A stretch of DNA of 64,000 bases, taken from NCBI GenBank assembly GCA_946886125.1, contig CAMPHY010000001.1, forward strand, positions 5,852 to 69,851. Direction: 5' to 3'. A model generated the notes under the pieces. The model was not told the DNA's origin and ran no database searches. It saw only the letters and a list, made by a program, of their open reading frames with translations. Below are positions 1 through 59,050 of this stretch, one piece after another (within the stretch, counting starts at the first letter, position 1; every line of letters starts with the position of its first letter). The DNA comes from an uncultured Candidatus Saccharibacteria bacterium (GTDB lineage: Bacteria; Patescibacteria; Saccharimonadia; Saccharimonadales; UBA6022). The translations under genes and the position numbers were made by a program.

Positions 1-305
1 GGTGCAATAAATGCTTGCACCTTTTCCGATAGATTAGCCTCAGACATATGCACCTCATGATCAGCACCAGCCTCACCGTCATTCATTGCAACAGCTAGCT
101 CACCTTCAACGACTCGAGTGGTGTGATTTTGTAAATCATAATAACGAGCAGGGCGAGCGCTCTCCGATTCGAGTTGCAGTACTACTCTCAAGCCATTTAG
201 AGCAACATCCGTAGAAGCATCGTCAATCAAGTAGGCGGTCAGCCGCTCGCGTCCGGTTTCTAGCTTTTCAGTAGCACTGATGAATTCACTCGCTCTGTTG
301 TCCAT
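1..305 (-). CDS. Unknown protein, N-terminal part only
   Basis: An open frame enters from the left edge and starts at ATG 303-305 on the minus strand, giving about 101 visible residues without a stop; the C-terminus lies outside the window. The visible part is acidic and hydrophilic (Glu/Asp-rich) with no signal peptide or membrane segment, and I do not recognise the family. A TATAAT box lies six bases before the chosen ATG, matching the leaderless arrangement of many genes here. An upstream ATG (AGC next) in another frame soon meets a stop, which supports the chosen start. Confidence 0.6.
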   Translation of the reverse strand, partial: MDNRASEFISATEKLETGRERLTAYLIDDASTDVALNGLRVVLQLESESARPARYYDLQNHTTRVVEGELAVAMNDGEAGADHEVHMSEANLSEKVQAFIA

Positions 306-390
306 ATGCTCATTATAGTACTCCCGAAACAATATAGTGCAAGCACGAGCGATACATTCTTTTGATATGCTGATATGCTAGATAGAGATT

Positions 391-930
391 ATGCGAAAAT
401 TGCTCAACCATTTTGACACACGAGTCAGTGCAGGGATTGCGCTATGGCCACGTATGCTCCAAACACCTATGATCCTAGCAAGCTTTGTCGGCCTGCCAAT
501 CATCACGATGGCAATTGCGGGACTGCTGCTCATTATTGGGCTCTTGAGCGACCAACCGTCATTGAGCACAGCTGCGCTGGTAGCCTTACTGGTGTATATT
601 TTCAGCACCCTCTTGAAGCTTTCTTTCCAGCGCCCCCGACCTGTCACCGACTATGTCGAGCAGATGTTAATTCACAGCTATAGCTTTCCGAGTGGACACA
701 GTGTCGGCTCAACCGTCAGCTATGGACTGGTTGCCTACATTGCCCTACAAACAGTTGCTCAACCCACTGCTACAATCATCGCCGTTAGCTTAGGTCTTTT
801 AATTATTGCCATAGGGCTATCTCGAATATATCTGGGAGCACATTTTGCCAGCGACGTACTTGGCGGCTGGCTCGTTGGTGTAGCAGGGCTCGTCATTATT
901 ATCGAAGTAATAAAGCCACTGTCACAATAA
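391..930 (+). CDS. PAP2-family membrane phosphatase
   Basis: A 179-residue integral membrane protein of the PAP2/undecaprenyl-pyrophosphatase type, expected to remove phosphate from lipid phosphates (for example the undecaprenyl carrier) at the cell membrane. The three phosphatase motifs are visible: K76 with RPRP at 81-84, PSGH at 100-103, and SR at 144-145 with the catalytic-type His at 151 in the GAHFASD segment. Five to six hydrophobic stretches surround them. A TGATATGCT sequence lies about 11 bases before the ATG, so the leader would be very short. Its stop codon abuts the stop of the convergent yajQ-like gene with no gap. Exact lipid substrate is unknown. Confidence 0.88.
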   Translation: MRKLLNHFDTRVSAGIALWPRMLQTPMILASFVGLPIITMAIAGLLLIIGLLSDQPSLSTAALVALLVYIFSTLLKLSFQRPRPVTDYVEQMLIHSYSFPSGHSVGSTVSYGLVAYIALQTVAQPTATIIAVSLGLLIIAIGLSRIYLGAHFASDVLGGWLVGVAGLVIIIEVIKPLSQ

Positions 931-1425
931 CTAGCGATAATTGGTATATTGTAAGGCAATATCGAGTTCTGCCGATTCAAGGAGACGCATAACGTTTTGT
1001 AGCTCGTCCTTACTGCTACTCGTGACACGGACAGCCTCGCCTTGTATCTGAGCCTTCACCTTAGGTGCTTCATCACGCAACTTTTTGGTAATTAACTTTG
1101 CGTTATCCTGTGAAAGTCCTTGTTTAAATGGAATCTCCCAAGTTGATTTCATATTTGAATCTACTGGAGTTTTAGTAAGGTCGAGTACTTTAGCACTTTG
1201 CTGACGTATAGCCAGCTTCTTGCGAACGATATCAAGCACAGCATCGAGTTGCCACTCACCTGCACCAATAATCTTGAAGCCGGTTTTATCACCAAGCCAC
1301 TCAATTGCCGCCGGTGTTCCTTTAAAATCATACCGCGTTGAAATTTCGCGCTCTACCTGAGCAAACACGTTGTTCATCTCGGCTTTGTCATACTCACTCA
1401 CAATATCAAAAGAAAATGTTGCCAT
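931..1425 (-). CDS. yajQ: YajQ family nucleotide-binding protein
   Basis: The 164-residue product matches the YajQ/UPF0234 family over its full length: it opens with the typical MATFSFDIVSE start, then contains the duplicated alpha/beta fold with the RYDFKGT segment near residue 31 and the C-terminal part ending in LQYTNYR. Some family members bind cyclic di-GMP or tRNA; the role here is not known. A TACAAT box preceded by TGt lies six bases upstream of the ATG (extended -10), with no Shine-Dalgarno site, so the mRNA is predicted to be leaderless. It converges with the PAP2 gene, stop against stop. Confidence 0.9.
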   Translation of the reverse strand: MATFSFDIVSEYDKAEMNNVFAQVEREISTRYDFKGTPAAIEWLGDKTGFKIIGAGEWQLDAVLDIVRKKLAIRQQSAKVLDLTKTPVDSNMKSTWEIPFKQGLSQDNAKLITKKLRDEAPKVKAQIQGEAVRVTSSSKDELQNVMRLLESAELDIALQYTNYR

Positions 1426-1449
1426 GTATCTATTGTAACAAATTGCTTG

Positions 1450-2148
1450 CTACGCGGCCATGTTGCCAAAAAATGCGCGTTTGCAAGGTTTAGCATTTGA
1501 AATACCTTGGACACGGGCTAATGCCCGCAGCGTGCGGCGAGCTTCATCAATAGTCAGAACCGATAGCATCTCTTTGTCTGGCATTAGACCTAATTCACCA
1601 TCCTGCATCGTCTCCAGCTTACGTAAATATGACTCATGGCGCAGCTGCTCTTTTATATCTTGAGACACATCAATAGCGCTCATCGAGCCGAGTTTAATAC
1701 TGTCGTACAATCGATACACTTGCTCTTGTTCAAACACCCATTGTCGCATAACCTCTTCACTCGGTGGAGTAGGAGGGAGCGAAAGATGATGAAATAAGTT
1801 ATGTTTTTGACGACGTACTCTTACTTTAAGAGCGGCAGAGCCTCTATATTTTGCGCCCAATAGCTCATCGTCTCGACCTTTGATTGATCTATAAGCGCTA
1901 CCTGGCCATGCCATATGGTGTACATCATATTCGCCCTGCCAGTAATGATCGGTAGCGAGAGACCCCATCATTTTTGCCAGGAATTCACGCGGTTGCGGTA
2001 TCCCGAACTCATTCGTCGGCACCTCAATCATTACATCAGGATCTTTTGGACGAACCTTTTCGCCGTCTAATTCAAGTAGCGGCGTAAGCGGTACGATAGA
2101 GTGAAGAGAGTCGACAGGGCGCGGAAGTACCATCAAACGCTCTGTCAT
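1450..2148 (-). CDS. Unknown cytoplasmic protein, 232 aa
   Basis: A complete frame of 232 residues with a clear Shine-Dalgarno (GGAG about nine bases before the ATG). I do not recognise the family. The protein is hydrophilic and has no signal peptide or membrane segment; the middle part is rich in Arg/Lys and His (residues about 100-125) and the C-terminal half looks helical. Composition resembles the unknown gene at 18100-18735, another product of similar size with scattered charged residues, but I cannot show homology by eye. It is likely lineage-specific. Confidence 0.7.
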   Translation of the reverse strand: MTERLMVLPRPVDSLHSIVPLTPLLELDGEKVRPKDPDVMIEVPTNEFGIPQPREFLAKMMGSLATDHYWQGEYDVHHMAWPGSAYRSIKGRDDELLGAKYRGSAALKVRVRRQKHNLFHHLSLPPTPPSEEVMRQWVFEQEQVYRLYDSIKLGSMSAIDVSQDIKEQLRHESYLRKLETMQDGELGLMPDKEMLSVLTIDEARRTLRALARVQGISNAKPCKRAFFGNMAA

Positions 2149-2233
2149 TTTTAGTCTCCGAGCTCCATGAATATACCCGCGTATCTTGTCATCTTTTTTT
2201 ATTTATACGCTACTGACTACGCGAATGCAAATA

Positions 2234-2266
2234 AAAATACCTCGCCAGTATGTGGCGAGGTATTTT
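2234..2266 (-). terminator. Intrinsic terminator after the SPW-type membrane gene
   Basis: A 13-bp perfect stem (AAAATACCTCGCC with GGCGAGGTATTTT) and 7-base loop follows the stop of the gene at 2281-2670 on the minus strand. The A/T ends of the arms let it work in both directions. Confidence 0.85.
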
Positions 2267-2280
2267 ACTGTTAGTTCCTA

Positions 2281-2670
2281 CTAAGATACAATTTTAGTAT
2301 CATCTGCAGTCGTGCCTACAGCTGGCTTCGAAAGCAAGACTACTAAGATAACCGCGATACCTACAACAACATGCGGTACCCATGCGTTTGGTTCTTCATC
2401 GGCAAAACCAAATAGGAATGGTGATAGTAGCAAGAAAACAGAAGCTACAATGTCAATCGCCAAGTGAGCACGGTAACTAAGCACCTTAAAGACTCCCCAC
2501 TCATAATTGGTAAGTAGACTGTAAACAAACAGACCTACACCAAGAATCATTGGAATTGCTACTGCCGCACCGCCAACTTCTTGAAAGCCAAAAATCATAG
2601 GTGCGAAAAACAATGCAATCGCTACGATATAATCTAATGCGCCGTGTACTTTTGATGGGATAAACCTCAT
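2281..2670 (-). CDS. Four-helix membrane protein, SPW-repeat type
   Basis: A 129-residue protein made of four hydrophobic helices (about 12-30, 35-55, 65-88 and 98-116), with the internal two-fold pattern H..LDYIVA / HLAIDIVAS typical of small SPW-repeat membrane proteins. No enzymatic motif is visible and the function is unknown. The start is supported by AAGGAG six bases before the ATG. It is transcribed divergently from the Crp/Fnr gene at 2821, with a shared 150-bp control region that holds a CRP-like palindrome. Confidence 0.75.
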   Translation of the reverse strand: MRFIPSKVHGALDYIVAIALFFAPMIFGFQEVGGAAVAIPMILGVGLFVYSLLTNYEWGVFKVLSYRAHLAIDIVASVFLLLSPFLFGFADEEPNAWVPHVVVGIAVILVVLLSKPAVGTTADDTKIVS

Positions 2671-2732
2671 ACTTTGCTCCTTTTGTTAGTTACGTTGTGC
2701 TCGTATCATACACTAGCGCTATTTAAGAAAAC

Positions 2733-2748
2733 TGTAATAAATCTCACA
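2733..2748. promoter_or_regulatory. Candidate CRP/FNR-family operator
   Basis: A 16-bp palindrome of the form TGTAA-N6-TCACA lies in the divergent region between the membrane gene and the crp-like regulator, just upstream of a TATACT box at 2754-2759 facing the regulator. It fits the TGTRA-N6-TYACA pattern of the Crp superfamily; autoregulation is inference. Confidence 0.4.
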
Positions 2749-2820
2749 ATGAGCTATACTTTACGTATTATGGCTATACACTTACATGGAAATAGTTAAA
2801 ACTGAAATTGAATATACGAT

Positions 2821-3444
2821 ATGGATACGATAGCATTTGTAAAACAATTTCCGACTCGTCAATTCCGCAAAGGCGAGAGTATTCTTTCCGAAGGAGAAGA
2901 TACTAGCACCCTCCTTGCTGTACAGACGGGCTTTGTGAAAGTGAGTTCATTGAGCGATAATGGCACACATCGTTTGCTATGGATAGCTGGTCGCTATGAC
3001 CTTGTGCCGACCGAAGGGCTGTTTTCGGCTCACGGGAAAGCAGCGTTTTTCTATACAGCACTAAGCGACGGTCAGGCGTATGTTATTAATAAGAAAGCAT
3101 TTATAGAACAGGCCAAACAGAACGCTGACTTTATGTTTGAAGTAGCTAACAGTATGAGCATGCATTATGACGACCTCATGCGGCGGCTTGATTCGGTAGA
3201 ACAAAATAGCATACAGGATAAACTTATTTACACTTTACGTTATTTAGCTGAACGTTTTAGTGCCGATACTATGGTTGATCTTTTTAAACTAGGACTACAA
3301 CTTACTCATCAAGATATCGCTGACATGATCGGTGCAACACGTGAAACAACCTCCATTGAGTTACAGAAGCTGAAAAAGCGAGGGCTGATTCAGTACGATC
3401 GTAACTCCCTAGTTATTTATGTTGATAAATTAGACGTATCATAA
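2821..3444 (+). CDS. Crp/Fnr-family transcription regulator
   Basis: A 207-residue regulator with an N-terminal cyclic-nucleotide-binding-type beta-barrel (about residues 10-115), a long dimerisation helix, and a C-terminal winged helix-turn-helix. The HTH is plain: LTHQDIADMIGATRETTS around residues 160-177, with the Arg-Glu-Thr recognition residues that in Crp read a TGTGA half site. It lacks the N-terminal cysteine cluster of FNR, so an iron-sulfur oxygen sensor is unlikely; effector is unknown. The nearby TGTAA-N6-TCACA palindrome suggests it controls itself and the divergent membrane gene. Confidence 0.85.
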   Translation: MDTIAFVKQFPTRQFRKGESILSEGEDTSTLLAVQTGFVKVSSLSDNGTHRLLWIAGRYDLVPTEGLFSAHGKAAFFYTALSDGQAYVINKKAFIEQAKQNADFMFEVANSMSMHYDDLMRRLDSVEQNSIQDKLIYTLRYLAERFSADTMVDLFKLGLQLTHQDIADMIGATRETTSIELQKLKKRGLIQYDRNSLVIYVDKLDVS

Positions 3445-3565
3445 AATCATACTCTTGCCATACAAAAAAAGAGCATAACCTTTATTTAAGAATGCTTACG
3501 GTGAGGTTTCTCACAGACTTACCTAACCAATGTCTTATAGTTTAATACAGACAGAAGGAGCCTGA

Positions 3566-4459: not shown

Positions 4460-4461
4460 AT

Positions 4462-4496: not shown

Positions 4497-4515
4497 ATTT
4501 TTAATACACTCAAAA

Positions 4516-4995: not shown

Positions 4996-4997
4996 GA

Positions 4998-5667: not shown

Positions 5668-5671
5668 ACGT

Positions 5672-10033: not shown

Positions 10034-13000
10034 TTACGCCTCCTCCTTTATTTCATCTACTTCATCAATGTCTTGAATACTTACACCATCACCTAGATCA
10101 CCAAGTTCATCTGCTTCATCGCGCACCGTCTCTTCGGTACTAATGTCGATAATAGCCGGAACAGTCTTATCTGACGGGCCCGCGCTTGCAATAATATGCT
10201 CAGCATCAATCACCGCGTCTTCACTCTCGTCGAGAAGATCGACACGCAGACCCAGACCCTGCAATTCTTTTACAAGAACGTTAAAGCTTTCTGGAAGCTT
10301 TGGACCGACAATCGGCTCATCTTTGATAATCGATTCATACGCCTTAGCACGGCCGTATACATCATCGGACTTAATGGTTAGCATTTCTTGGAGTGTCGTT
10401 GCGGCGCCATATGCTTCGAGCGCCCAAACTTCCATCTCTCCAAATCGCTGACCACCGTTTTGGGCTTTACCGCCAAGTGGCTGCTGGGTAACCATTGTGT
10501 ATGGACCAGTTGAACGAGCGTGTATCTTATCACTCACCATGTGATGAAGCTTAATGATGTGCATCACACCAACAGTTGTACGCTCTTCAAATGCTTCGCC
10601 AGTACGACCGTCAAACAACTGAGATTTACCATCACGAGCATAGCCAGCTTTTTCAAGCTCATCGCTAATAACTTGATCAGATACACCGTTAAATGGTGGG
10701 GTTGCAACCTTGTAACCAAGTGCACGTGCCGCCATTCCAAGGTGAGTTTCAAATAGCTGACCAATGTTCATACGACTCGGCACACCAAGTGGATTCAAAA
10801 TAACGTCTACCGGAGTACCATCTTCCATGAATGGCATATCTTCTGCAGGCAGAATACGAGCCACAACACCCTTGTTACCGTGACGTCCAGCAAGCTTATC
10901 GCCAACTGAAATCTTACGGAGTTGAGCCACAAAGATCTGGATCTGCATCAAGACACCAGCCTTTAGTTCATGACCATTTTCACGAGAGAAGATCTTAACA
11001 CCAACAACCTTACCGCCACCAGCGTTATTCATACGTTGTGAGGTGTCACGGACATCTTTAGCTTTTTCACCAAAGATAGCACGTAGTAGTCGTTCTTCAG
11101 AACTAAGCTCTTGCTCGCCCTTTGGCGTAATCTTTCCTACAAGTACGTCGCCTGATTTAACCTCAGAGCCGACTTGCACAATACCGCTTTCGTCGAGATG
11201 ACGAAGTGATTCTTCTGATACATTTGGGATATCTCGAGTAACAATTTCTGGACCAAGCTTTGTTTCGCGAACTTCAACAGTGTAATCCTTGATGTTAATA
11301 CTCGTCAGTGCGTCGTCTTTAACAATCCGGTCAGATAGCACGATCGCGTCGTCCATATTGTAGCCGCCCCATGGCATAAAGGCTACCGTGAGATCACGAC
11401 CAAGTGCGAGTTCACCATCTGCAATAGAGGCACCTTCGATCAGACGATCACCAGCTTTGACTTTTTGACCACGAACTACGCATACTTTTTGGTTAATTGA
11501 ACGATCATCATTACTCTTTGTAAAGTGAACGACGTCATAGATTTTCACACCATCTTTGTATTTCACGTGTACCTGATCACCGTCTGCGCGAACTACTTCA
11601 CCATCTGCTTCCGCAAGGATTAATTGGCTAGTGTTCTTAGCTACCTCAGCCTCAATACCTGTACCTACCGTTGGCGCTTCAGGGGTAAGGAGTGGCACTG
11701 CCTGCTTCTGCATGTTTGTACCAGTAAGAGAGCGGTCGATACGGTTTTTCTCAATAAATGGTACCAAGCTAGCTGGTGGACCAAGAATCTGTTTATGCGC
11801 TGCATCCATATAGGTTACTTCAGAGGCATCAACCTGCTCTGGTAGGAGTCCATTACGAGCACTCACACGTTCAGCAGCAAATGAATTATCCTCATTTAGC
11901 TCAGCGCCGGCATCTGCAATCACTTCAACAAGCTCTTGTGAGGCGTCAAGGTAAACTACTTCATCAGTTACTTTGCCATTTACCACCTTTAGATACGGAG
12001 TTTCAATAAAGCCATACTCATTGACACGAGCGTAGCTCGCAAGGTTAAGCACTAGTCCAATGTTGGCACCTTCAGGAGTTTCAACTGAACAAAGACGACC
12101 ATAGTGAGTCGGGTGCGCATCACGCACATCAAAGCCAGCACGTTCACGAGAAAGTCCGCCAGGACCCATTGAACTAAGGCGGCGTTTATGAGAAAGCTCG
12201 GCGAGTGGGTTTGTCTCATCCATAAGCTGTGAAAGCTGAGATGAAGCAAAGAATTCACGAACCGCAGCCACGACTGGTCGAGCGTTAATCAATTGACCAG
12301 GAGTTACATTCTCAATATCGCTCATACTCATGCGATCCATCGCATTACGTTGCATACGAAGCATACCAACTCGGAACTGTCGGGCGACAAGTTCACCAAC
12401 AAGCTTGATACGACGGTTAGACAATGCGTCAATATCATCGGCTGGTTCTTGAGTATTGTTTAAGCGAATAATCTCCTTGATGATTGCAATCAGATCACTC
12501 ATCTGGAACACACGGTTCTCAGTAGTGTTCGCTACATCAAGACCGAGACGCTGGTTGAGCTTGAAGCGCCCTACGCGGCTATAGTCAAAACGCTTAAAAT
12601 CAAAGAACATACGCTCAATCATACTGCGAGCGTTATCAACAGTAGCGAGGTCACCTGGTCGAAGACGACGATACACTTCAATAAGTGCTTCATTTGAACC
12701 ACGAGCTGGATCTTTATCGAGGGTGGCATCGATATATTTCACTTCACCAGTGTCTACGTCGGCAAAAAGACTCTTAATTTCACTTGTCTTATTATGACCA
12801 AGTGCACGGAGCAAGGTAGTAACAGGAAGCTTGCGACGACGATCGATTTTGACATACAACACTCCGTTGGCGGCTGTTTCAAATTCAAGCCATGCACCAC
12901 GGCCTGGAATAAGCTTTGCACCGTAGTTATTACGAGTTGCCGTGCTGTCAGCCGTAAAGAATACACCCGCAGAACGGATCAGCTGGGACACAACGACACG

Positions 13001-15000: not shown

Positions 15001-15029
15001 AGTATAGCGCTCGCTAGCACTCAATGCAA
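15001..15029 (-). promoter_or_regulatory. clpP promoter
   Basis: TTGCAT, a 17-base spacer and TATACT on the minus strand, with TATACT only six bases before the clpP ATG, so the transcript should begin at or within a base or two of the start codon. Confidence 0.75.
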
Positions 15030-15395: not shown

Positions 15396-15410
15396 ACAAC
15401 CGTTATACGC

Positions 15411-16694: not shown

Positions 16695-16718
16695 TCAACC
16701 AATTATAACAGATCAAAA

Positions 16719-19382: not shown

Positions 19383-19462
19383 GTTACCTACAGTATAGCG
19401 TACCTCGACACTGTAGTATTTAGCGTGTATGCTAAAACCATTAGCTGTTATAAAGGAAAAGC

Positions 19463-26171: not shown

Positions 26172-26747
26172 CTATAAACTGACCCAACAATTAGTAATAC
26201 CATTTCCGCTCGACGTATAACCTGTCGTAGAAGTTTCATAAGGGTTTATTTCCGTGGCAGTTCCAGGTAGTTGTCGTCCAACATTCGCTAGCTGACAATC
26301 TTGCTGCTCACCCTTTAACCAATACATTAACAATGCAGGCGCTACATTGCCGTTATATGTGCGAGGTGAATAATAATTATAATATAGGCCATGGTAAGTC
26401 GGGTTTGTACCAGGCACACTCGACGGAGGTGTCCCGATCTTTCGTAGTTCTGTCATAAGCGCATTATTATCATTTGTCTGCTCAACACCTGTATAGGCTG
26501 TACAACTATTGTCTGTGGTCAAGCAGGCATTATAGGCAACAGGCAAACTGCCGTTTGTCGTCTTGTACGCCGTTATGATTTGCTGCACCTGTTTAGCTGC
26601 AGCTATTACTGCTGTATTATTTGCACGCTCCTGAATGCCGCTATAGGCGACAATCGTAATAGCTGCTAAAACCCCAATTACTACAATTACAATTAGTAGC
26701 TCGACAATCGTAAAGCCTGTTTGCCTGGAAGTTGAATTAGCGCTCAT
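26172..26747 (-). CDS. Type IV pilin-like protein
   Basis: A 191-residue prepilin. A short basic leader ends at the prepilin peptidase site TG|FTIVELLIVIVVIG, with Glu at +5 of the mature protein, followed by the hydrophobic assembly helix and the ANNTAVIAAAKQVQ spine. The C-terminal head holds several cysteines that probably form disulfides. TATACT preceded by TGt lies seven bases before the ATG (leaderless). It is one of four pilins in this window that share the first 35 or so residues but differ in the head. Confidence 0.92.
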   Translation of the reverse strand: MSANSTSRQTGFTIVELLIVIVVIGVLAAITIVAYSGIQERANNTAVIAAAKQVQQIITAYKTTNGSLPVAYNACLTTDNSCTAYTGVEQTNDNNALMTELRKIGTPPSSVPGTNPTYHGLYYNYYSPRTYNGNVAPALLMYWLKGEQQDCQLANVGRQLPGTATEINPYETSTTGYTSSGNGITNCWVSL

Positions 26748-26819
26748 GCTTTAGAGTATAACAGAACGAAAACTACCGCCTACGTCAGAGGGTCATTGCA
26801 GTCTAGGCCTTAATGAACA

Positions 26820-27497
26820 TCAAACACCATACTCTATTGCGTCTGCTTCATCATTCATTCTTGCCGCTATTCGTCCGACCCACCCTTGTAGTGATGATTG
26901 TTCGCGTAAAGGCAGTGGCGAGTATCCACCAGAGTCCCAAATCGCACGATACACATCCCGTTTCGTATCCAAGGTAGTTCCGATTAAGTTCTCATTTAAG
27001 CCATATAACTGAGCGCCGAGTTGAGCGCCCATTACCTCATCGACAGTGTGGGCAATGTCTGCAAAGGTGTCGGCGAATTCATCTGATTTCTGAGTATTAA
27101 AGGTGGCAATTTTCCTTGGAGGATACAATCCGCGTAATGTTTCATTTTGCAAAACGACTGTGGGCGACAAACCGACATACGACATAAATTGGCTATACGT
27201 AGGATCAATCGTCACCCCTTCATACTGGAGTACTACGTGCGCCATGCGCCGTTGATTAATCAAACGTGGAGCGATTTCTGGCTGCGTGACCATTCGCTCA
27301 GTATCAATATGATGTCGCTCCAAAAGAAAACACTGCAACGCCGCGGTCGCAACTCCACAATACGAATAGCGTAGCTGCAAATCCTCTCCAAGACCCGCCC
27401 TAATACCCTCTTGCATCAATGCCTTCTCGAGAGGTTGCGTTACGTGCGCAATGATATTGTCGAGTTCACCTGCCTCACTTGGCCGAGAAATATCCAT
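26820..27497 (-). CDS. Unknown protein with Cys-His-Asp pattern, possible thiol hydrolase
   Basis: A 225-residue protein lying between two pilin genes. Cys47 at the start of a helix (YSYCGVATAAL), His87 (RMAHVVLQY) and Asp98 (VTIDPTYSQF) appear in the order and spacing of the papain/transglutaminase/arylamine-acetyltransferase superfamily, so a thiol enzyme is plausible. There is no signal peptide. TAGTAT lies six bases before the ATG. The family is not recognised, and a role in pilin processing is only a guess from position. Confidence 0.6.
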   Translation of the reverse strand: MDISRPSEAGELDNIIAHVTQPLEKALMQEGIRAGLGEDLQLRYSYCGVATAALQCFLLERHHIDTERMVTQPEIAPRLINQRRMAHVVLQYEGVTIDPTYSQFMSYVGLSPTVVLQNETLRGLYPPRKIATFNTQKSDEFADTFADIAHTVDEVMGAQLGAQLYGLNENLIGTTLDTKRDVYRAIWDSGGYSPLPLREQSSLQGWVGRIAARMNDEADAIEYGV

Positions 27498-27528
27498 ACC
27501 TCTATACTACACTTGTCGAGTAGAAATG

Positions 27529-28101
27529 CTACACACTCACCCAGCAAGCCGTAACGTTCTCATTCGTATAGCTATAACTATACGAATTAGTAGATCGTCG
27601 CCATGCTTCACCCGCTCCTTGTGTCGCAACATCAGCAACGCCACAATTCTGCTGAAGACCATCAAGCCAATACATTATCAATACGATTCGATCGGATGCG
27701 CCGCTATCGTCAAACGTCGCACCAGCAGCGCGTGTGTTATACCATATTCCATAATACTTACCTGCAGCCTTACTTTCAGCCGGCGCATTGCCAATAGTAC
27801 TTAATTGGTTGCGCAATGTAGAATTATCAGTACTAACCGGAGTGCCAGCAAAGTCAGTGCATACATTCGTAAGGCATGGTGAGTTTGTAACGGGAATAGT
27901 ACCGTTTGTGGCACGGTACGCTTTTATTAATTTTATTGCTTGTTGAGCCGCAGCTATACGTGCGGTATTATTTGCTCGTTGCTGTATGCCGTTGTACGAG
28001 ACAATAGTGATTGCCGCTAAAATGCCAATCACTACAATAACGATAAGAAGTTCAACGATAGTAAAGCCATTTGATTTCAAAGAAGAAGAAATACTACTCA
28101 T
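27529..28101 (-). CDS. Type IV pilin-like protein
   Basis: A 190-residue prepilin with cleavage site NG|FTIVELLIVIVVIGILAA, hydrophobic N-terminal helix and a Ser/Thr/Asn-rich head containing Cys residues near 84 and 88 and towards the C-terminus. Its head resembles that of the pilin at 26172 (LTNVCTDF/GTPVSTDNS versus LTTDNSCTAYTG region), suggesting a duplication. TACAGT lies seven bases before the ATG. Confidence 0.92.
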   Translation of the reverse strand: MSSISSSLKSNGFTIVELLIVIVVIGILAAITIVSYNGIQQRANNTARIAAAQQAIKLIKAYRATNGTIPVTNSPCLTNVCTDFAGTPVSTDNSTLRNQLSTIGNAPAESKAAGKYYGIWYNTRAAGATFDDSGASDRIVLIMYWLDGLQQNCGVADVATQGAGEAWRRSTNSYSYSYTNENVTACWVSV

Positions 28102-28131
28102 GCTTTTTACTGTAGCATGTTATATACGGCG

Positions 28132-33201: not shown

Positions 33202-34551
33202 CTACTGCAAGTAGTCAATAAGAGCTTGGCGAAGATCCCCAACTCCTTTAATAAATTCATTTTTGCGACCCGACTTAGGCGCAATTGCCTGAGTGAATCC
33301 AAGCTTTTTCGCCTCAGCCACGCGACGTTCGCTGCTATGGGCACTGCGCACTTCGCCGCCAAGACCGACTTCGCCGAATACGACAAGTTCATCATCAAGA
33401 CGCCGCCCCGCAGCTGCGCTAGCAATTGCCATACAGATAGCTAAATCAGCTGCCGGATCGCTTACCTTTAACCCACCGACCACATTGATATAAATATCTT
33501 TATCCGATAAATTTAGTTTTGTTCGCCGTTCAAGAACAGCGATTAACAAATTAAGTCGGTTCAGGTCAAAGCCCGAGGCAGTACGTTTAGGATACCCGAA
33601 ACTCGTAGGATTGACAAGCGCCTGTATTTCTACGAGCAGTGGTCGTGTACCTTCAATCGTTGCGAGTACAACTGATCCATCAGCATTCTGACGTTCAGCG
33701 AGTAGCGCTGCAGATGGATTCTCTACTACGCGAAGACCTTGTTCGTCCATTTCAAAAATAGCTGCTTCAGCTGTTGAACCAAAACGATTCTTAACTGCAC
33801 GAACAACTTTAAAGCCACCGTATCGATCGCCCTCAAACTGCAAGACAACATCCACGAGATGTTCCAGTACTTTCGGACCGGCAATGGAACCTTCTTTGGT
33901 AACATGACCAACTAAAACAACCGCTGCGCCAGATTCCTTTGCGGCGCGGATAATTACGTTACTACTATTCGTAATCTGGCTTACAGTACCAGGCGCAGAG
34001 GTAATCTCGTCAAGACTTAACGTTTGAATGGAGTCGATAATAACCAGTTTATACGCACCAGAGCGAATTGTAGCCGCAATATCGTCAGCACTTGTGCTAG
34101 CAACAAAGCTCAGCGCCTCGCTAGTATTTGCACCGAGTCGTTCGGCTCGTAGCTTCACCTGACTCGCAGACTCCTCGCCACTGGCATAGAGTACTGGATT
34201 TGCCTTAGCGACGTGCGCCGTCACCTGTAGAAGCAACGTACTTTTGCCAATACCAGGCTGCCCTGCCATAAGTACCACTCCACCAGGTAAAATACCGCCG
34301 CCTAACACATCATCGAGATCCGCAAAGCCCGTACTAAGACGAGTAATTGTGTCTTCGAGAGATATAGATTGCATTGTTTGCGGCGTAAGCACCGTCCCGC
34401 TTGATGCGCCACGGGATACGACTGACTTGCCGCTACTCACCGCTTGTTCAACCAAGCTGTTCCATTGACCGCAATTGTCGCACTTACCTGTCCACTTAGA
34501 ATAGCTAGCGCCGCAGTGCTGGCAGATAAATTGAGATTTAGATTTAACCAT
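33202..34551 (-). CDS. radA: DNA repair protein RadA (Sms)
   Basis: A 449-residue RecA-like branch-migration helicase. The N-terminal zinc finger is intact (Cys10, Cys13, Cys24, Cys27), followed by Walker A GQPGIGKST (97-105), the RadA-specific KNRFG motif (254-258) and the C-terminal Lon-like domain (VVGGLKVSDPAADLA). TATAAT eight bases before the ATG suggests an extra leaderless promoter inside the clpC operon. Retention of zinc ligands here contrasts with RpoC and PilB. Confidence 0.96.
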   Translation of the reverse strand: MVKSKSQFICQHCGASYSKWTGKCDNCGQWNSLVEQAVSSGKSVVSRGASSGTVLTPQTMQSISLEDTITRLSTGFADLDDVLGGGILPGGVVLMAGQPGIGKSTLLLQVTAHVAKANPVLYASGEESASQVKLRAERLGANTSEALSFVASTSADDIAATIRSGAYKLVIIDSIQTLSLDEITSAPGTVSQITNSSNVIIRAAKESGAAVVLVGHVTKEGSIAGPKVLEHLVDVVLQFEGDRYGGFKVVRAVKNRFGSTAEAAIFEMDEQGLRVVENPSAALLAERQNADGSVVLATIEGTRPLLVEIQALVNPTSFGYPKRTASGFDLNRLNLLIAVLERRTKLNLSDKDIYINVVGGLKVSDPAADLAICMAIASAAAGRRLDDELVVFGEVGLGGEVRSAHSSERRVAEAKKLGFTQAIAPKSGRKNEFIKGVGDLRQALIDYLQ

Positions 34552-34567
34552 TACGTTATATTATAGC

Positions 34568-39880: not shown

Positions 39881-39988
39881 ATACCTCCTTCCAGGTTTCC
39901 TTTTTGTAGTATACGAGGCATCTACCTAGCTAAGCGGTGATATACCTCACAAAACGCCCATATCTATATGAAGTTGTATACTATTGCT

Positions 39989-42426: not shown

Positions 42427-42687
42427 TTACGGACGTGCTTTCTTCACCGAAATAAGAATTACCCCACCAACGAGCACAGCTACCACGCCGAGAAACAGTA
42501 GTATGTTTGCTGGTGTAGGGTCTGTATCTGAGGCGATATTCTCGCCAAGAAAAATGAAGGCCGAAATAACGATCGACGCCACCATACTAATCAGTATGAG
42601 CCAACCCTCCCAGGATATTGGCACCCAGCCCCATCCCAGATCTTTTGACTTCAATCCTCGTCGTTTTCTAAACCAATACTTATTCAT
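42427..42687 (-). CDS. Small two-helix membrane protein, 86 aa
   Basis: An 86-residue protein with a basic, Trp-rich start (KYWFRKRRGL..GWGWVP) and two membrane helices (about 28-47 and 60-80). No family recognised. TATACT preceded by TGc lies six bases before the ATG (leaderless, extended -10). It is co-directional with the DUF2130 gene upstream. Confidence 0.7.
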   Translation of the reverse strand: MNKYWFRKRRGLKSKDLGWGWVPISWEGWLILISMVASIVISAFIFLGENIASDTDPTPANILLFLGVVAVLVGGVILISVKKARP

Positions 42688-42710
42688 ATTTTCAGTATAG
42701 CAAAGGTGCC

Positions 42711-44000: not shown

Positions 44001-44230
44001 CTTATTAGTATACCTTGTCTTTGTATTGATAGGCCGATACCTTTATCGCCCCAATAGACCGTCTGCGCGTGTTGCTAAAATTCTTCTTCAAATCTAAGTC
44101 GGCATTTCTATACAAGGACTGTTCGTACCATTAGTACAGGAAGCTTGGTGGTATGAACGTTCACTTTTTGCCTTGTTAAGTATGGGTACCGATACTTTTG
44201 AATTCATTTACAGGCTACAAACTAATTTCG

Positions 44231-44971: not shown

Positions 44972-45022
44972 AAAAATATTATACCTCTGTTTGTAATCGT
45001 TGGATATTATAATTGATACCCA

Positions 45023-45612: not shown

Positions 45613-45682
45613 ACGTATAGTATAGCGCAGGCTGATATATGCCAATAATCATCACATACCGATTCGATGTCGGCGCATAACA

Positions 45683-46576: not shown

Positions 46577-46597
46577 GTACTCATCATAGCAAACAAA

Positions 46598-51700: not shown

Positions 51701-52411
51701 TAACTGCAACGCTGTTCGCGCGGTAGGCACCGGCTGATCAGGGCAGCTAGAGAGTATTTGTTGCATAGCTTCTTTTTCGGCAGGGATCACCCATAGCTCG
51801 TATTTTAGCTTTACGGCTATTTGACGCGCAATATACTGACAGCGGAACGATATATTCGGTGGTAACCAGCTAGCAGCATTGGCATCAGATTTTTCTTGGT
51901 TGGCATCACCATCTACCGCCAATAATTCGAGTGGATCATTCGACAGCGCTTCTCGCCGTGCTGGTGTAAGTTGCTGAGCACCAGTTTGCCAAGCGTCACT
52001 TAGTGCCACAACATGATCAATTTGTACGTCGTCACTAGTAGTCTCACCTCGTTGAAATTGAATAACTTTTCCCGTATACGGATCTATTAACGTGCCGCTT
52101 AGCACTTCACACTCGCCATCAATTTTTACATTAGTCATATCACGATTTAAAATTATATCTCGTGTATCGCACCCCAGTGTCGAGGCCCATCCGTCACCAA
52201 ACAGTGCTCTTTCATAGCCCGTTTTAGGTGCTCTTCCCTTAACTGCTAGTTTCTCAAGTGCTATAAGGGCAGGACTATTCACTATACCTTCACTCGTATC
52301 AGAGGGTGCAGCAGAGCGATGCACTTCCGGCTGAACAATAAGTGCGACGACAGAAATGATAAGTACGATTATCGCTGTGATTAGCCTGCCTGTTCTTTGT
52401 CGACGCTTCAT
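51692..52411 (-). CDS. Membrane-anchored HNH endonuclease (GmrSD-C/DUF1524-like)
   Basis: A 239-residue protein with an N-terminal signal anchor (about 8-28) and an HNH nuclease domain of the extracellular DUF1524/GmrSD-C type: GYERALFGDGWAS, GCDTRDIILNRD, the core IDHVVALSDAW (Asp132-His133), SNDPLELLAV (Asn158) and NQEKSDANAASWLP (Asn171, Lys174). Cys81, Cys101 and Cys191 could form disulfides, consistent with an outside location. TATAAT seven bases before the ATG predicts a leaderless mRNA. It likely degrades external DNA. Confidence 0.87.
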   Translation of the reverse strand: MKRRQRTGRLITAIIVLIISVVALIVQPEVHRSAAPSDTSEGIVNSPALIALEKLAVKGRAPKTGYERALFGDGWASTLGCDTRDIILNRDMTNVKIDGECEVLSGTLIDPYTGKVIQFQRGETTSDDVQIDHVVALSDAWQTGAQQLTPARREALSNDPLELLAVDGDANQEKSDANAASWLPPNISFRCQYIARQIAVKLKYELWVIPAEKEAMQQILSSCPDQPVPTARTALQLLP

Positions 52412-52418: not shown

Positions 52419-52437
52419 ATTATACCTTTGCTACAAT
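52419..52437. promoter_or_regulatory. Face-away divergent -10 boxes in a 32-bp intergenic
   Basis: TATAAT (minus, 52419-52424) lies seven bases before the HNH gene ATG and TACAAT with TGc (plus, 52432-52437) six bases before the aminopeptidase ATG. Only seven bases separate the two boxes, so both -35 regions must fall in the opposite gene. Confidence 0.7.
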
Positions 52438-55123: not shown

Positions 55124-55732
55124 TCAAACCAAGAGATTCGATTGAGGTTTCAGAGGAGTCGGCGGGTCTTTTTTGTATTTAGCCAGTGGCGCAAAAGATA
55201 AACGGTGCAGAGGCGTGACACCAAGCCGTTCAATTGCATCGCGGTGTACGGCAGTCCCGTATCCGACATGACGAGCAAAGGCATAACCGGGATATATCGC
55301 ATCCTGCTGTGTCATATACGTATCCCGTGCAACTTTAGCAATAATTGATGCAGCACTTACGCATGGTATCAAAAGGTCTGCTTTTTTGAGCATCGTCACG
55401 CAATCACCCTGTGGCATCTCTTTAATAAAGTTAATTGTGCCATCAATAATAATTTCATGATACGGCACTGTGATTTGCCGAAGTGCTCGTTTAGTTGCCA
55501 GAGTAAGGCTTGCCGAAAGGCCAAGCGCATCGATCTCCGAAGCTGCTACCCAGCCCAAACCACATCCAGCAGCTTTCTCATAAATTTCTGCAGAAAGTTC
55601 TTCACGTTTCTTTTTTGATATCTTCTTACTATCAGTCAACCCCACGATTGAAGCTTCGCTCAGTACAACCGCACCAACCACAAGCGGCCCTGCCCAAGGC
55701 CCACGACCCACTTCGTCAATACCAACAATCAT
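55124..55732 (-). CDS. rnhB: Ribonuclease HII
   Basis: A 202-residue RNase HII that removes ribonucleotides and RNA primers from DNA. It starts MIVGIDEVGRGPWAGPLVVGA with the catalytic Asp6-Glu7 pair, and has LTDSKKISKKKRE, the IIDGTINF strand and CVSAASIIAKVARD. TATGCT with TGc lies six bases before the ATG (leaderless). Confidence 0.95.
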   Translation of the reverse strand: MIVGIDEVGRGPWAGPLVVGAVVLSEASIVGLTDSKKISKKKREELSAEIYEKAAGCGLGWVAASEIDALGLSASLTLATKRALRQITVPYHEIIIDGTINFIKEMPQGDCVTMLKKADLLIPCVSAASIIAKVARDTYMTQQDAIYPGYAFARHVGYGTAVHRDAIERLGVTPLHRLSFAPLAKYKKDPPTPLKPQSNLLV

Positions 55733-55749
55733 ATATCAAGCATAGCAGG

Positions 55750-55778
55750 TTGCAATATATTTGATATGGTGTTATAAA
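55750..55778 (+). promoter_or_regulatory. Promoter of the 55.8 kb ORFan
   Basis: TTGCAA, a 17-base spacer and TATAAA on the plus strand, starting inside the rnhB promoter region on the opposite strand. Confidence 0.6.
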
Positions 55779-55815
55779 ATAATAGTTCTATTTTCCTCGA
55801 CCAAAGGTGTTCATC

Positions 55816-56205
55816 ATGAAATCTGCAGTGAAAAAAGCAGAACAAGCGTTCCTTACCAGTTACCAGACATTCGGCCGTGCCGTCAAAGCCGAAATCACCC
55901 GCGATCACGGCCTACGCTTGATCAACGAAACCGCACAAGAGCTCAAAATCCTTTGCGCACGGAGCGGTGTCATCGGACCAGACAATCAACTCGCAGCTCA
56001 CTTGATGAGCATGGCTGGCTTTGGACCCGAGGGTCTACTCGCCGGGTGGATTGCGCAATATGACGCAATCACCTTCTCTTTACCCGGTGACAGTTTTGGC
56101 GTACTGATCAGGTACGACTTACGGCATGAAGACGCAGAGCACGTGGCAAAAAGCTGGGGCTCCGCCCAGGTAACCAGCTATCACGAAGCACAGCGAAGAA
56201 GATAG
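55816..56205 (+). CDS. Unknown protein, 129 aa
   Basis: A 129-residue soluble protein starting at ATG 55816 with AAAGGTG six bases upstream (an in-frame start nine bases earlier is less well placed). Helical N-terminal half, no membrane segment, no family recognised. Higher G+C and different codon use from rnhB and rplS around it, own promoter and own GC-rich terminator. Confidence 0.68.
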   Translation: MKSAVKKAEQAFLTSYQTFGRAVKAEITRDHGLRLINETAQELKILCARSGVIGPDNQLAAHLMSMAGFGPEGLLAGWIAQYDAITFSLPGDSFGVLIRYDLRHEDAEHVAKSWGSAQVTSYHEAQRRR

Positions 56206-56212
56206 AACAGCC

Positions 56213-56246
56213 GCCCGTTTCCCTTGTGGAGACGGGCATCTTCTTT
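56213..56246 (+). terminator. Terminator of the 55.8 kb ORFan
   Basis: GCCCGTTTCC pairs with GGAGACGGGC over 10 bp (one G-T) followed by a T-rich tract. Confidence 0.75.
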
Positions 56247-56257
56247 GTGCAAAAATA

Positions 56258-56286
56258 AAAAAGACGCCGTTTGGCGTCAGTTTTAT
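56258..56286 (-). terminator. rplS terminator
   Basis: GACGCC-GTTT-GGCGTC with an A-run on the plus strand that becomes a T-run after the stem on the minus strand. Confidence 0.8.
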
Positions 56287-56298
56287 TTGCAATAATTG

Positions 56299-56724
56299 TT
56301 ACGCTTCAACTTTTTCTTCAGCCTTTGGCGTTTCGGCCGCTGGCTCAGCAACCGTATTAATCGCTTCACGATCAAAGTTCTTAGCAGTCAAGCGAGCGCT
56401 CTTACCACTTCGTTCACGGAGGAATGAAAGGTAGTTACGGCGTACTTTTGAACGACGAACCACTTCAATTTTTTCAACCAGAGGGCTGTGGAGCAAGAAG
56501 CTCTTTTCAACACCAATACCACTCGTAATCTTACGAACAGTAATACGTGAAGTATGCGACTTCTTGTTGTCGGTGCGAATAACCACACCTTCGAAAATCT
56601 GAACACGCTCTTTAGCGCCTTCTTTAATTTTTTGGTGAACACGTACGGTGTCACCGCTACGAACATCAACTACACCAGCTTTTTTCTGGGCTTCGTTGAC
56701 TTGCTTAATTAGTTCAAAACTCAT
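56299..56724 (-). CDS. rplS: Ribosomal protein bL19 with acidic C-terminal tail
   Basis: A 141-residue bL19, which sits at the 30S-50S interface. The core (about 1-115) shows VRVHQKIKEG, VQIFEGVVIR and GVEKSFLLHSPLVEKIEVVRR (in parts), then the usual RRNYLSFLRERSGKSARL. The last 25 residues form an extra Ala/Glu/Pro tail rich in acidic residues that canonical bL19 lacks. No strong ribosome site is visible. Normally it follows trmD; here it stands alone. Confidence 0.95.
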   Translation of the reverse strand: MSFELIKQVNEAQKKAGVVDVRSGDTVRVHQKIKEGAKERVQIFEGVVIRTDNKKSHTSRITVRKITSGIGVEKSFLLHSPLVEKIEVVRRSKVRRNYLSFLRERSGKSARLTAKNFDREAINTVAEPAAETPKAEEKVEA

Positions 56725-56818
56725 CTCTTGTCTCGCTTTATTCGTTTATAGATACAATCAATTATTTACTATACCACAGTGGTGGGATATTTAAAAGAGG
56801 TACGAGCATTTATTTTAA

Positions 56819-58441
56819 CTAAATAACTCGGTTGATCTCATCGAGTGTAGTTTCTCCGCGCAGTGCGGCAAGCACACCCGCCTCAAGCAGCGTCACCATA
56901 CCATCCTCACGTGCCTGTTTTTCGATTACTTCCGTATGAACGTCTTTTACTTCACCGCGAAGAAACTTTTGTATATTTTCGCGCACAACCATCTGCTCCA
57001 TAATCACAACACGTCCCTTATAGCCAAATGGGACGTCGTCAGTAGGTACAGGGCGCCATAGTTGGAAATGATCAAGATTCGGTTTTTCTATATGATCTGG
57101 GAGGTTTTTAAGTACCTCTCGCACCCATTGCTTTGTCGCCTCGTCCGGATCATACGCCTCTTTGGTTTCATCATACAGTCTGCGTACTAAACGTTGGGCT
57201 ACCACAAGACGAATCGCCGAACTAAAAATAGGATTCACGCCAGTAAGGTCGATCATGCGACTAAATGCGGCAGCTGTGGAGTTTGCATGAAAAGTAGATA
57301 ACACTAAATGGCCCGTGATAGAGGCTTGAATGGCGGTTTTAGCCGTATCGGTGTCACGAATCTCACCAACCATTACAACGTCAGGATCAAGACGTAATAC
57401 CGCCCGAAGTCCGTCAGCAAAACTCGCGCCACCGGTTGTATTAATTGGTATCTGCGTAATACCGCTAATACCGTACTCTACCGGGTCTTCTAGTGTGATG
57501 ATTTTACGATCAGTGGTATTGAGTGCATTCAGCATACTGTATAGCGTGGTCGACTTACCACTCCCAGTTGGACCAACCATCAACACCATACCACGCGGAT
57601 GGCTAATAACTTCATCGATCTCTGCTCGCTCTGATTGAGCAATACCGAGTAGATCAAGCTGCAGCAGACTTTCATCAAAGTTGAATAAACGCAGTACTGC
57701 ATCTTGGCCAAACATGGTCGGTACTGTTTCAACACGCAAGTTAAGCAAATGTGTCGCACCGTCACGGGTGATTTCTTGTTGCATATGACCCGACTGTGCT
57801 TCTGTGGCAGCGCTTGATATATTAGCCCGCGATGCGAGTGCGCCCATAATGACACGGTATCGGTCTTTATCAAGCTGAGCGACAGCGTGCAGCGCACCGT
57901 CAACGCGCATACGAACACGAATCGCCGTTCGTTGATTCTCAATATGAATATCACTTGCCCCTAATCGATCAGCTTGATCAATTAAATAGTCAAACGCTCG
58001 ATCGCTACTCACCGAATTAAGAGTCTGGCTCACCGCCGCTAACGTGTCGCTGTCACCTTCCTTGGCAATCTGAATATCATCATATACTACCTCTTTCGGG
58101 GGATCATATCGCTGCATAAATGCCCTAAAAGCACTGTTACTAATAAGCAGGAACTGTGTGTTATAAGCCGTTTCGCTATATTTCTTTTCCAGTTGCCCGA
58201 TTAACGACTGTGGTGTCTGACTGGTAACCCCAAAGCGAAATGGCTCGGCCTCGTTGCCAGCAATCAGGGGAACCAAGCGGCCTTTATACATCTCCGCCAC
58301 CCCTAAGATGCCGTCGGTAAGCGGAAGGGTTGCCTCAATTTCACGGGCATCAAGGTACTGAAGTCCTAAAATAGCCGCGCGTTCACGAGTCGCTTTTTCA
58401 TCTTGCTCACGACGACGAGCTTGAATTTTATCTTCATCCAT
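56819..58441 (-). CDS. pilB: Type IV pilus assembly ATPase PilB/GspE, no zinc cysteines
   Basis: A 540-residue secretion ATPase that powers pilus extension. N-terminal MshEN-like domain (about 30-110), then Walker A GPTGSGKST (290-298), Asp box ITLEDPVEYG, Walker B VVMVGEIRD (357-363 region) and His box (ITGHLVLSTFH). The tetracysteine zinc insert of PilB/GspE is gone: after RLVRR the sequence is LYDETKEAYDP and the second half ends PFGYKGR without any cysteine. TATAGT with TGc lies seven bases before the ATG (leaderless). It should serve the four pilins of this window. Confidence 0.94.
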   Translation of the reverse strand: MDEDKIQARRREQDEKATRERAAILGLQYLDAREIEATLPLTDGILGVAEMYKGRLVPLIAGNEAEPFRFGVTSQTPQSLIGQLEKKYSETAYNTQFLLISNSAFRAFMQRYDPPKEVVYDDIQIAKEGDSDTLAAVSQTLNSVSSDRAFDYLIDQADRLGASDIHIENQRTAIRVRMRVDGALHAVAQLDKDRYRVIMGALASRANISSAATEAQSGHMQQEITRDGATHLLNLRVETVPTMFGQDAVLRLFNFDESLLQLDLLGIAQSERAEIDEVISHPRGMVLMVGPTGSGKSTTLYSMLNALNTTDRKIITLEDPVEYGISGITQIPINTTGGASFADGLRAVLRLDPDVVMVGEIRDTDTAKTAIQASITGHLVLSTFHANSTAAAFSRMIDLTGVNPIFSSAIRLVVAQRLVRRLYDETKEAYDPDEATKQWVREVLKNLPDHIEKPNLDHFQLWRPVPTDDVPFGYKGRVVIMEQMVVRENIQKFLRGEVKDVHTEVIEKQAREDGMVTLLEAGVLAALRGETTLDEINRVI

Positions 58442-58558
58442 TGACTAAACTATAGCAAAAAGCTTATGTAAATTATAGAGCGTCGTGCTGTATTTGTATA
58501 AGTTACGAGAATGGTATAAATAGAACATGACGTGGGGCGAATGCTACAATTGAGTGTA

Positions 58559-59050
58559 ATGTCTGAAATTATCGTTATTGCTCACAACATTCGCTCCGCC
58601 CACAACGTTGGTGCGATTTTTCGAACATCTGAAGGCCTGGGTGTGCAAAGCATCATTTTAAGTGGCTACACACCTTACCCTACACTTGCAAACGACACAC
58701 GGTTGCCGCATATTTCTCGCAAACTAACCGATCAGATTCACAAAACAGCCCTTGGCGCCGAAGCTATTGTGCCATTTAAGCAACAACTTGAACCGGATTT
58801 CCAGTCGTTACGCCAAGCTGGTTATCGTATCGTTGGGCTTGAGCAAGACGAGCGTAGCGTCATGCTTGATGCGTACACGCCTTCAGAAAAAACTGTACTA
58901 CTGCTTGGTGAAGAGGTTGCGGGTATTGATAACGAATATCGAGAGCAGTGTGATGATTTGGTTGAAATACCTATGGTAGGGCGCAAAGAATCATTTAACG
59001 TCAGTGTAGCTACCGGTATTGCGCTCTACGCCTTGACCCGCCCTATTTAA
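58559..59050 (+). CDS. SpoU/TrmH-family RNA methyltransferase
   Basis: A 163-residue SPOUT methyltransferase, shorter than the one at 18756. Motifs: IVIAHNIRSAHNVGAIFRTSE, VLLLGEEVAGI and ESFNVSVATGIALYAL. The frame could open at 58532, but TGcTACAAT sits eight bases before the ATG at 58559, which starts MSEIIVIAHN as expected for the family. It overlaps the end of dnaE, which is convergent, by eight bases. Confidence 0.9.
   Translation: MSEIIVIAHNIRSAHNVGAIFRTSEGLGVQSIILSGYTPYPTLANDTRLPHISRKLTDQIHKTALGAEAIVPFKQQLEPDFQSLRQAGYRIVGLEQDERSVMLDAYTPSEKTVLLLGEEVAGIDNEYREQCDDLVEIPMVGRKESFNVSVATGIALYALTRPI

Follow-up and report, generated by a model that had tools for sequence, protein, structure and literature searches.

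Bacterial leaderless genes, as described in an earlier report (Zheng 2011, PMC3160421), possess a TANNNT signal approximately 12 bp upstream of the start codon, and a TG preceding this box was also reported there in several low-GC genomes. Genes with such a signature were observed in a 64-kb stretch of contig CAMPHY010000001.1 from an uncultured Candidatus Saccharibacteria bacterium (the window, that is, the whole stretch of DNA analysed), where, as in the sampled relatives, about a quarter to nearly half of the genes appear to carry a promoter that places the predicted mRNA start at or near the start codon, a mode of initiation that is known but not the usual one. The box, its distance from the start codon, the lack of a Shine-Dalgarno site and the occurrence in a mixed genome together with Shine-Dalgarno genes are shared by the window and the genes treated in that report, whereas the box in the window (45% GC) is TATAAT-like and often extended and that of the high-GC genomes in PMC3160421 is a bare TAnnnT. 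The top bacterial share given there, 46.1% in Deinococcus radiodurans, is not rankable against the 25–45% estimated here because the methods differ.

Mycobacterial and other actinobacterial leaderless genes likewise coexist with Shine-Dalgarno genes in one genome; they are backed by RNA-seq and ribosome profiling, whereas those of Saccharibacteria are backed by sequence alone. A departure from Shine-Dalgarno starts is also common to the window and to the genomes lacking the 16S anti-Shine-Dalgarno (Amin 2018, PMC6107228), of which 128 taxa, concentrated in Bacteroidetes, Tenericutes, and Proteobacteria, were listed. Unlike those genomes, the window's class retains and uses the anti-Shine-Dalgarno, the loss being found in a related class (see below); the words Parcubacteria, Saccharibacteria, and candidate were not found in the available text of PMC6107228. 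As a kind, leaderless genes of this signature are already known; what appears to be new is their occurrence in Saccharibacteria, with a signal that is unusually clear across the class. The term TM7 was not found in the accessible text of Zheng 2011 (PMC3160421), no title on leaderless genes in Saccharibacteria or other Patescibacteria was found among the matches listed in the open literature searched, an earlier mention being possible, and no published transcription start mapping for Saccharibacteria was found in that literature.

Stretches of the genomes of relatives, instead of whole genomes, were compared with the window. The RpoB of the window shared 85% identity with that of the closest relative (G001) and 83% with that of a Candidatus Saccharibacteria genome, in keeping with the lineage named in the preliminary description; the further relatives belong to the class of G001, which we take to be Saccharimonadia. 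Genes were found from codon statistics only (56 in the window), and start codons were assigned jointly by our own gene finder and a motif model. At a posterior of 0.8, the 793 genes sampled from the class (those of the window among them) were divided into 216 box genes, 347 Shine-Dalgarno genes, and 230 genes in neither class, 16 of which have a box more than 14 nt from the start.

A preliminary description of the window had listed nineteen ATG start codons, each preceded at 6–8 nt by a -10-like box, many of them extended by TGn and all lacking a Shine-Dalgarno site. Upon reading and measuring, the box was found to end 6–8 nt before the ATG in all 19 (Table 1; 6 nt in 12, 7 nt in 5, and 8 nt in 2), with a hexamer matching TATAAT at all six positions in 5, at five in 12, and at four in 2, and a TG was located one base upstream of the box in 10. 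Absence of a Shine-Dalgarno site held for 17 of the 19, which possess none of six 4- to 5-mers within 20 nt, but not for the genes starting at 305 and 44971, where GGAG or GAGG lies within 20 nt, touching or upstream of the box and hence outside the predicted transcript. All of the listed genes start with ATG, the list being one of ATGs only, and 14 have a pyrimidine-purine initiator step at the start codon. The model placed the start at the listed ATG with a posterior of at least 0.99 in 16; among those missed were the RadA-like gene at 34551, for which codon scoring favoured a start 159 nt inside the gene although RadA orthologues align from the listed ATG, and the 86-aa open reading frame at 42687, which was dropped by the gene finder.

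At 45% GC, TANNNT alone is not rare, so that a test has to address the spacing. When each gene was examined for TANNNT upstream of any in-frame ATG close to the start favoured by codon scoring, the motif was present at spacers of 6, 7, and 8 nt in 13, 6, and 2 of 55 window genes, that is, 21 gene matches versus about 7 expected from a background mean of 2.41 per spacer at distances of 12–40 nt (54 genes). Similar peaks were found in the nearest relatives, with 14, 13, and 6 of 101 genes against a background mean of 4.4, and in further genomes from the same class, with 31, 23, and 15 of 250 genes against a mean of 9.5. Thus, the enrichment at 6–8 nt over controls, a test put forward in the preliminary description, was obtained both in the window and in the stretches of its relatives. 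No clear peak was seen at the same three spacers in Firmicutes (2, 12, and 5 of 173 genes; mean, 5.2) or cyanobacteria (2, 0, and 4 of 90 genes; mean, 1.9). The excess was small in Chloroflexi (59 genes), at 4.4%; other Patescibacteria (72 genes) reached 10.0% with TANNNT and only 1.0% with boxes matching at five of six positions. In Actinobacteria, where 239 genes from 18 loci were counted with ATG starts only, almost nothing was obtained; this count was set aside unused, because the gene finder performs poorly at 69% GC and such genes often start with GTG.

A three-way mixture of a 9-mer around TATAAT, a 7-mer around AAGGAGG, and neither was then fitted, with spacing initially uniform over 0–30 nt and the TG positions initially at background. 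Training was on 739 genes of relatives, comprising all class groups except the window. The model converged on tG.TATAAT with spacers of 6 (0.25), 7 (0.20), 8 (0.13), 9 (0.12), 10 (0.06), and 11 nt (0.05), the other motif being aAGGAG, mostly at 3–11 nt; the TG was learned from background values, and exact TGn is present in 119 of the 216 box genes, i.e., about half. With motifs fixed and box spacing restricted to 5–11 nt, the window had a leaderless weight of 0.45, and 20 of its 54 genes had a posterior above 0.9. The groups belonging to the training set had weights of 0.37 (nearest relatives; 31 of 101 genes above 0.9), 0.27 (other class members; 42 of 192), 0.25 (G045; 40 of 219), and 0.35 (G062; 65 of 227). 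The Shine-Dalgarno weight in the window and these groups was 0.47–0.62. Moving the spacing by 13 nt as a decoy lowered the box weight to 0.12, 0.07, 0.03, 0.02, and 0.02 in the window, nearest relatives, other class members, G045, and G062, respectively, and shuffling of single upstream bases gave 0.02, 0.04, 0.03, 0.01, and 0.03. Training of the model on single groups led to this box and spacing again in each of the five class groups, and did not do so in Firmicutes, cyanobacteria, or the 72 genes of other Patescibacteria. The leaderless weight was 0.01 each in Firmicutes (173 genes), cyanobacteria (90), and E. coli (56), and 0.03 in Chloroflexi (59). In a larger set of other Patescibacteria (318 genes) it reached 0.24 (41 genes above 0.9; shuffled, 0.05) with a Shine-Dalgarno weight of 0.03, indicating that the box is not limited to the class of the window; G004 (20 genes) gave 0.21 (1 gene above 0.9; shuffled, 0.09).

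Bases 3′ of the box were left out of the model. Among box genes with a spacer of 6 nt, a pyrimidine precedes the ATG in 69 of 74, a higher proportion than in the Shine-Dalgarno class (185 of 347; p = 5e-12); in a control of non-start ATGs with TANNNT at 6 nt it was present in 154 of 302. For a weak -35 element (TTGACA, at least 4 of 6 positions), the distance of precisely 17 nt from the box stood out, with 25 of 216 box genes compared with 1–16 of 216 at the 26 other distances from 5 to 31 nt. With ATG, GTG, and TTG all allowed, ATG was the start in 212 of 216 box genes versus 319 of 347 Shine-Dalgarno genes. Mycobacterial leaderless genes often start with GTG, and the box class differs from them in this respect. 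A search for the sigma factor matched 7 of 8 genomes, one being without a match; regions 2.4–3.0, including VHMVETINK, had the canonical form in 7 of 8 loci, and the remaining locus, a second sigma factor of G062, lay outside the reading. The H and E of VHMVETINK are the residues of region 3.0 that contact the TG.

For spacers of 8–11 nt, the commonest pyrimidine-A step among the positions examined before the ATG is located 7 nt past the box (14 of 32 genes at a spacer of 8 and 24 of 56 at 9–11), as though transcription started there and left a leader of a few nucleotides; the predicted leaders of these genes are probably 1–5 nt long, and that of the gene starting at 62792 is probably 4 nt by the same rule. 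Such genes may instead constitute a separate class of very short leaders that are initiated differently, for which the step at this position can be adduced. However, one motif fits both sets of spacers, and the orthologues of the trigger factor gene (tig) span spacers of 7–11 nt, which suggests a single tolerant mechanism; the separate class is a serious, though less probable, alternative.

Positions among neighbouring genes differed between the two start classes. The 216 box genes include 77 that are divergent from the upstream gene, 132 co-directional and non-overlapping, of which 35 lie within 30 nt of the upstream gene, 4 overlapping the upstream gene, and 3 at an edge, while the 347 Shine-Dalgarno genes include 48 divergent and 83 overlapping (divergent to overlapping, 77:4 versus 48:83; p = 3e-19). 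The box itself overlaps the upstream gene in 12 of the 216. Overlapping cistrons are thus almost always boxless, and box genes follow a gap, sometimes a very short one, and have their own promoter. These observations bear on the idea that the A/T-rich hexamers serve to enhance translation, as unstructured or S1-binding leaders, and are not promoters, the mRNA leaders being longer. A/T-rich upstream regions without Shine-Dalgarno sites do exist elsewhere, an upstream AT-rich bias at starts can reflect S1 binding sites (Nakagawa 2017, PMC5397173), and in two genomes of the related class described below, G089 and G093, the model finds mainly A-rich upstream sequence. An enhancer would nevertheless account poorly for TGnTATAAT at a narrow distance, the -35 at 17 nt, and the initiator pyrimidine at -1; moreover, co-directional overlapping genes need translation signals and usually no promoter, and only 4 of 115 such genes have the box. 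We consider this explanation very improbable.

Conservation was examined in orthologues. For tig, matches were found in 56 of 61 genomes, and the best 30 loci together with L002 and L003 gave 32 rows, 27 of which have TANNNT at spacers of 7–11 nt, with identity down to 36% and diverged surrounding sequence; of the others, 3 have AGGAG and a box farther upstream and 2 have neither (row L191 was counted as Shine-Dalgarno despite a TAATAT at 12 nt). For radA, matched in 61 of 61 genomes, the best 30 loci were read and 28 rows had an ATG near the aligned start (2 of 30 did not); a box at 4–12 nt was found in 21 of the 28, compared with 386 of 2544 (15%) pseudo-starts. A RadA search of plasmids added nothing. 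N-termini could be aligned for 11 of the 19 listed genes (46 rows at an identity of at least 40% and a coverage of at least 60%, 14 of them tig or radA from largely the same genomes as above), and a box at 5–11 nt was present in 40 of the 46, with Shine-Dalgarno only in 2 and neither in 4. A switch between the two signals is seen at 1425, where the box stands at 6 nt in the window and in G001 (TACACT) and G002 has a leader with AGGAG instead. The preliminary description had also held that the box corrects several start sites; this is supported for ClpP, with a start at ATG 14994 instead of TTG 15024, the box being at the same ATG or one codon off in 7 of 8 orthologue rows. That the boxes are true promoters of genes whose real start codons lie farther downstream behind ordinary leaders is scarcely credible. 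Codon scoring alone did choose a later start in a few genes, for example at 34392 for RadA and at 28080 for the gene listed at 28101. In the alignments, however, orthologous proteins begin at the listed ATG, the offset being 0 in 32 of 32 rows for tig, in 22 of 28 for radA, and in 40 of 46 for the listed genes, and the model starts 16 of the 19 listed genes there.

The ribosomal side looks ordinary. CCTCC was found in all 28 readable 16S 3′ ends among 30 taken from the window's class (L085 possibly foreign), which is accordingly not among the genomes without Shine-Dalgarno starts whose 16S 3′ end lacks CCUCC; bS21 was matched in 61 of 61 genomes (44 above the curated cut-off) and IF3 in 57 of 61. 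A reduced ribosome was considered as the cause but is not supported, as bS21, IF3, and the anti-Shine-Dalgarno are all retained. The 16S gene at L085 (G047:C1:419-1939) is near a contig end and its 3′ region is unlike those of the other class members read; since the tig and radA of G047 are close to those of the window, L085 may be a foreign or misassembled contig end.

With a ribosome that looks ordinary, the system is read as two tracks: it is highly probable that many genes have a promoter at the start codon and that overlapping genes and many others are started from Shine-Dalgarno sites. On the first track, genes with their own promoter would carry a -10 box of the housekeeping sigma factor, often extended as TGnTATAAT, with a weak or absent -35; transcription would start on the A of the ATG at spacers of 6–7 nt and 1–5 nt before it at 8–11 nt, and on the resulting leaderless or near-leaderless mRNAs 70S ribosomes would presumably initiate at the 5′-terminal AUG, a route described for leaderless mRNAs (PMC9031893). 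On the second, genes overlapping the preceding gene, and many others, would use Shine-Dalgarno sites paired with the intact 16S anti-Shine-Dalgarno. The box, its spacing, its enrichment in relatives, its conservation in orthologues, the initiator pyrimidine, the AUG preference, and the neighbour position are all present in the DNA itself; from them we infer where the RNA begins and the 70S route. The preliminary description had taken leaderless starts to be a main mode of the lineage, an interpretation that the sequence signals support with a refinement: at weights of 0.25–0.45 they would be one of two main modes, the Shine-Dalgarno class (0.47–0.62) being the larger.

Several points weigh against this two-track reading. 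The positive control, Deinococcus plasmid MP1, reached a weight of just 0.11, with 4 of its 78 genes above 0.9, and this low value in a group reported to be rich in leaderless genes indicates that the model is tuned to the lineage of the window. Among non-start ATGs, too, those preceded at 6 nt by a strong box (5 of 6 positions) tend to have a pyrimidine before them (41 of 63), and the pyrimidine signal is weak at a spacer of 7 nt (37 of 54, p = 0.04). Boxless orthologues occur for 52411 (2 of 2 rows), and those of 1425 and 45612 have a Shine-Dalgarno site in one row each. Starts were assigned by our own gene finder and the motif jointly, and 230 of the 793 class genes fall in neither class. 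The transcript starts, on which the reading chiefly depends, are predictions from the DNA sequence.

If a quarter to nearly half of the genes are leaderless, gene starts called by Shine-Dalgarno rules would need correction, and reporter designs would have to put the promoter at the start codon. As there would be no leader RNA, regulation of these genes would have to act on the promoter or the ribosome. The box would also supply a nearly base-exact promoter map. Few members of the Candidate Phyla Radiation have been cultured, and Saccharibacteria belong to these few. With the related class that lacks the anti-Shine-Dalgarno, they would form a natural series on how bacteria abandon Shine-Dalgarno starts.

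Table 1. Start signals located in the window (distances are from the end of the signal to the start codon)
Feature	Position	Strand	Evidence
TATAAT box, 6 nt before ATG 305	312..317	-	read, measured; posterior 1.00
TACAAT box, TGn, 6 nt before ATG 1425	1432..1437	-	read, measured
Shine-Dalgarno GAGGAGG, 6 nt before ATG 10032 (example of the other start class)	10039..10045	-	Shine-Dalgarno posterior 1.00
TATACT box, 6 nt before ATG 14994 (ClpP)	15001..15006	-	box in 7/8 orthologue rows
TATAAC box (weak, no final T), 6 nt before ATG 15395	15402..15407	-	posterior 0.47
TGTTATAAT extended -10, 7 nt before ATG 16694 (trigger factor)	16702..16707	-	box in 27/32 orthologues
TATACT box, 9 nt before ATG 19382 (absent from the preliminary list)	19392..19397	-	posterior 1.00
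TATACT box, TGn, 7 nt before ATG 26747 (pilin-like N-methylation motif)	26755..26760	-	read, measured
TACAGT box, TGn, 7 nt before ATG 28101 (pilin-like)	28109..28114	-	1/1 orthologue row, possibly a paralogue
TATAAT box, 8 nt before ATG 34551 (RadA-like)	34560..34565	-	box at 4-12 in 21/28 orthologues
TATACT box, 6 nt before ATG 39989 (topoisomerase IB)	39977..39982	+	read, measured
TATACT box, TGn, 6 nt before ATG 42687 (86-aa ORF, putative gene)	42694..42699	-	read, measured
TATACT box, 6 nt before ATG 44000 (DUF2130 protein)	44007..44012	-	read, measured
TATAAT box, 6 nt before ATG 44971	44978..44983	-	read, measured
TATACT box, 6 nt before ATG 45612	45619..45624	-	lone orthologue row: GAGG, no box at 5-11
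TATGAT box, TGn, 6 nt before ATG 46576	46583..46588	-	read, measured
TATAAT box, 7 nt before ATG 52411	52419..52424	-	no box in 2 orthologue rows
TACAAT box, TGn, 6 nt before ATG 52444 (M1 peptidase)	52432..52437	+	box in 4/4 orthologue rows
TATGCT box, TGn, 6 nt before ATG 55732 (RNase HII)	55739..55744	-	box in 5/5 orthologue rows
TATAGT box, TGn, 7 nt before ATG 58441 (type II/IV secretion ATPase)	58449..58454	-	box in 4/4 orthologue rows
TACAAT box, TGn, 8 nt before ATG 58559	58545..58550	+	box in 5/5 orthologue rows
TATACT box, 10 nt before ATG 62792 (absent from the preliminary list)	62803..62808	-	posterior 0.99

The start codons of the divergent box genes at 52411 and 52444 are separated by 32 nt and their -10 boxes by 7 nt, so the two promoters should be mutually exclusive; the -35 position of each overlaps the start codon of the other. 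The two pilin-like genes (26172-28101), with an N-terminal methylation motif, each possess their own TGn box at a spacer of 7 nt, and pilin-like relatives in L139 and L141 also have TATACT just upstream of an ATG.

The related class mentioned above is a Patescibacteria class that includes a Candidatus Ryanbacteria genome (G066). Among 30 16S loci taken from it, 23 were readable, and CCTCC was absent from the tail after helix 45 in 15 of these (L238, L240, L244, L245, L247-L249, L251-L255, L261, L263, and L265). No ACCTCCTT was found downstream of these tails within up to 800 nt (74 nt in one case and about 450–570 nt in three), which makes an intron unlikely for most of the 15 genes. One of the 15, that of G097, has a near-intact CATCTCC, and Shine-Dalgarno 5-mers precede 3 of 15 genes in this genome (control, 0). 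Across 112 genomes of the class, helix 45 was matched exactly in 75, of which 23 have a perfect tail; in 20 further genomes without a perfect tail (L315-L334), CCTCC was absent in 16 and present after one change in 4.

Shine-Dalgarno 5-mers in this class were at background both in genomes without the anti-Shine-Dalgarno (13 of 245 genes versus 10 in the control region) and in those with an intact tail (4 of 83 versus 4), L281 and L283 being left out of the gene sample and L284 (G097) kept separate. Genomes lacking the anti-Shine-Dalgarno gave a leaderless weight of 0.16, with 9 of 245 genes above 0.9, and those possessing it gave 0.05 (0 of 83), indicating that leaderless use is weaker and uneven there. 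It may be suggested, tentatively and as a rather unlikely generalization, that Patescibacteria as a whole are leaving Shine-Dalgarno initiation by way of leaderless starts, Saccharibacteria being two-track and the related class having lost the sites before its genes and also, in the majority of the members read, the 16S anti-Shine-Dalgarno; under such a scheme, genes with their own promoter would use a 5′-terminal AUG and coupled internal genes a Shine-Dalgarno site in Saccharibacteria. A model trained on G066 itself returned TGnTATAAT at a spacer of 6 nt, and those of G089 and G093 returned mainly A-rich upstream sequence (stretches L157-L159 and L267-L274).

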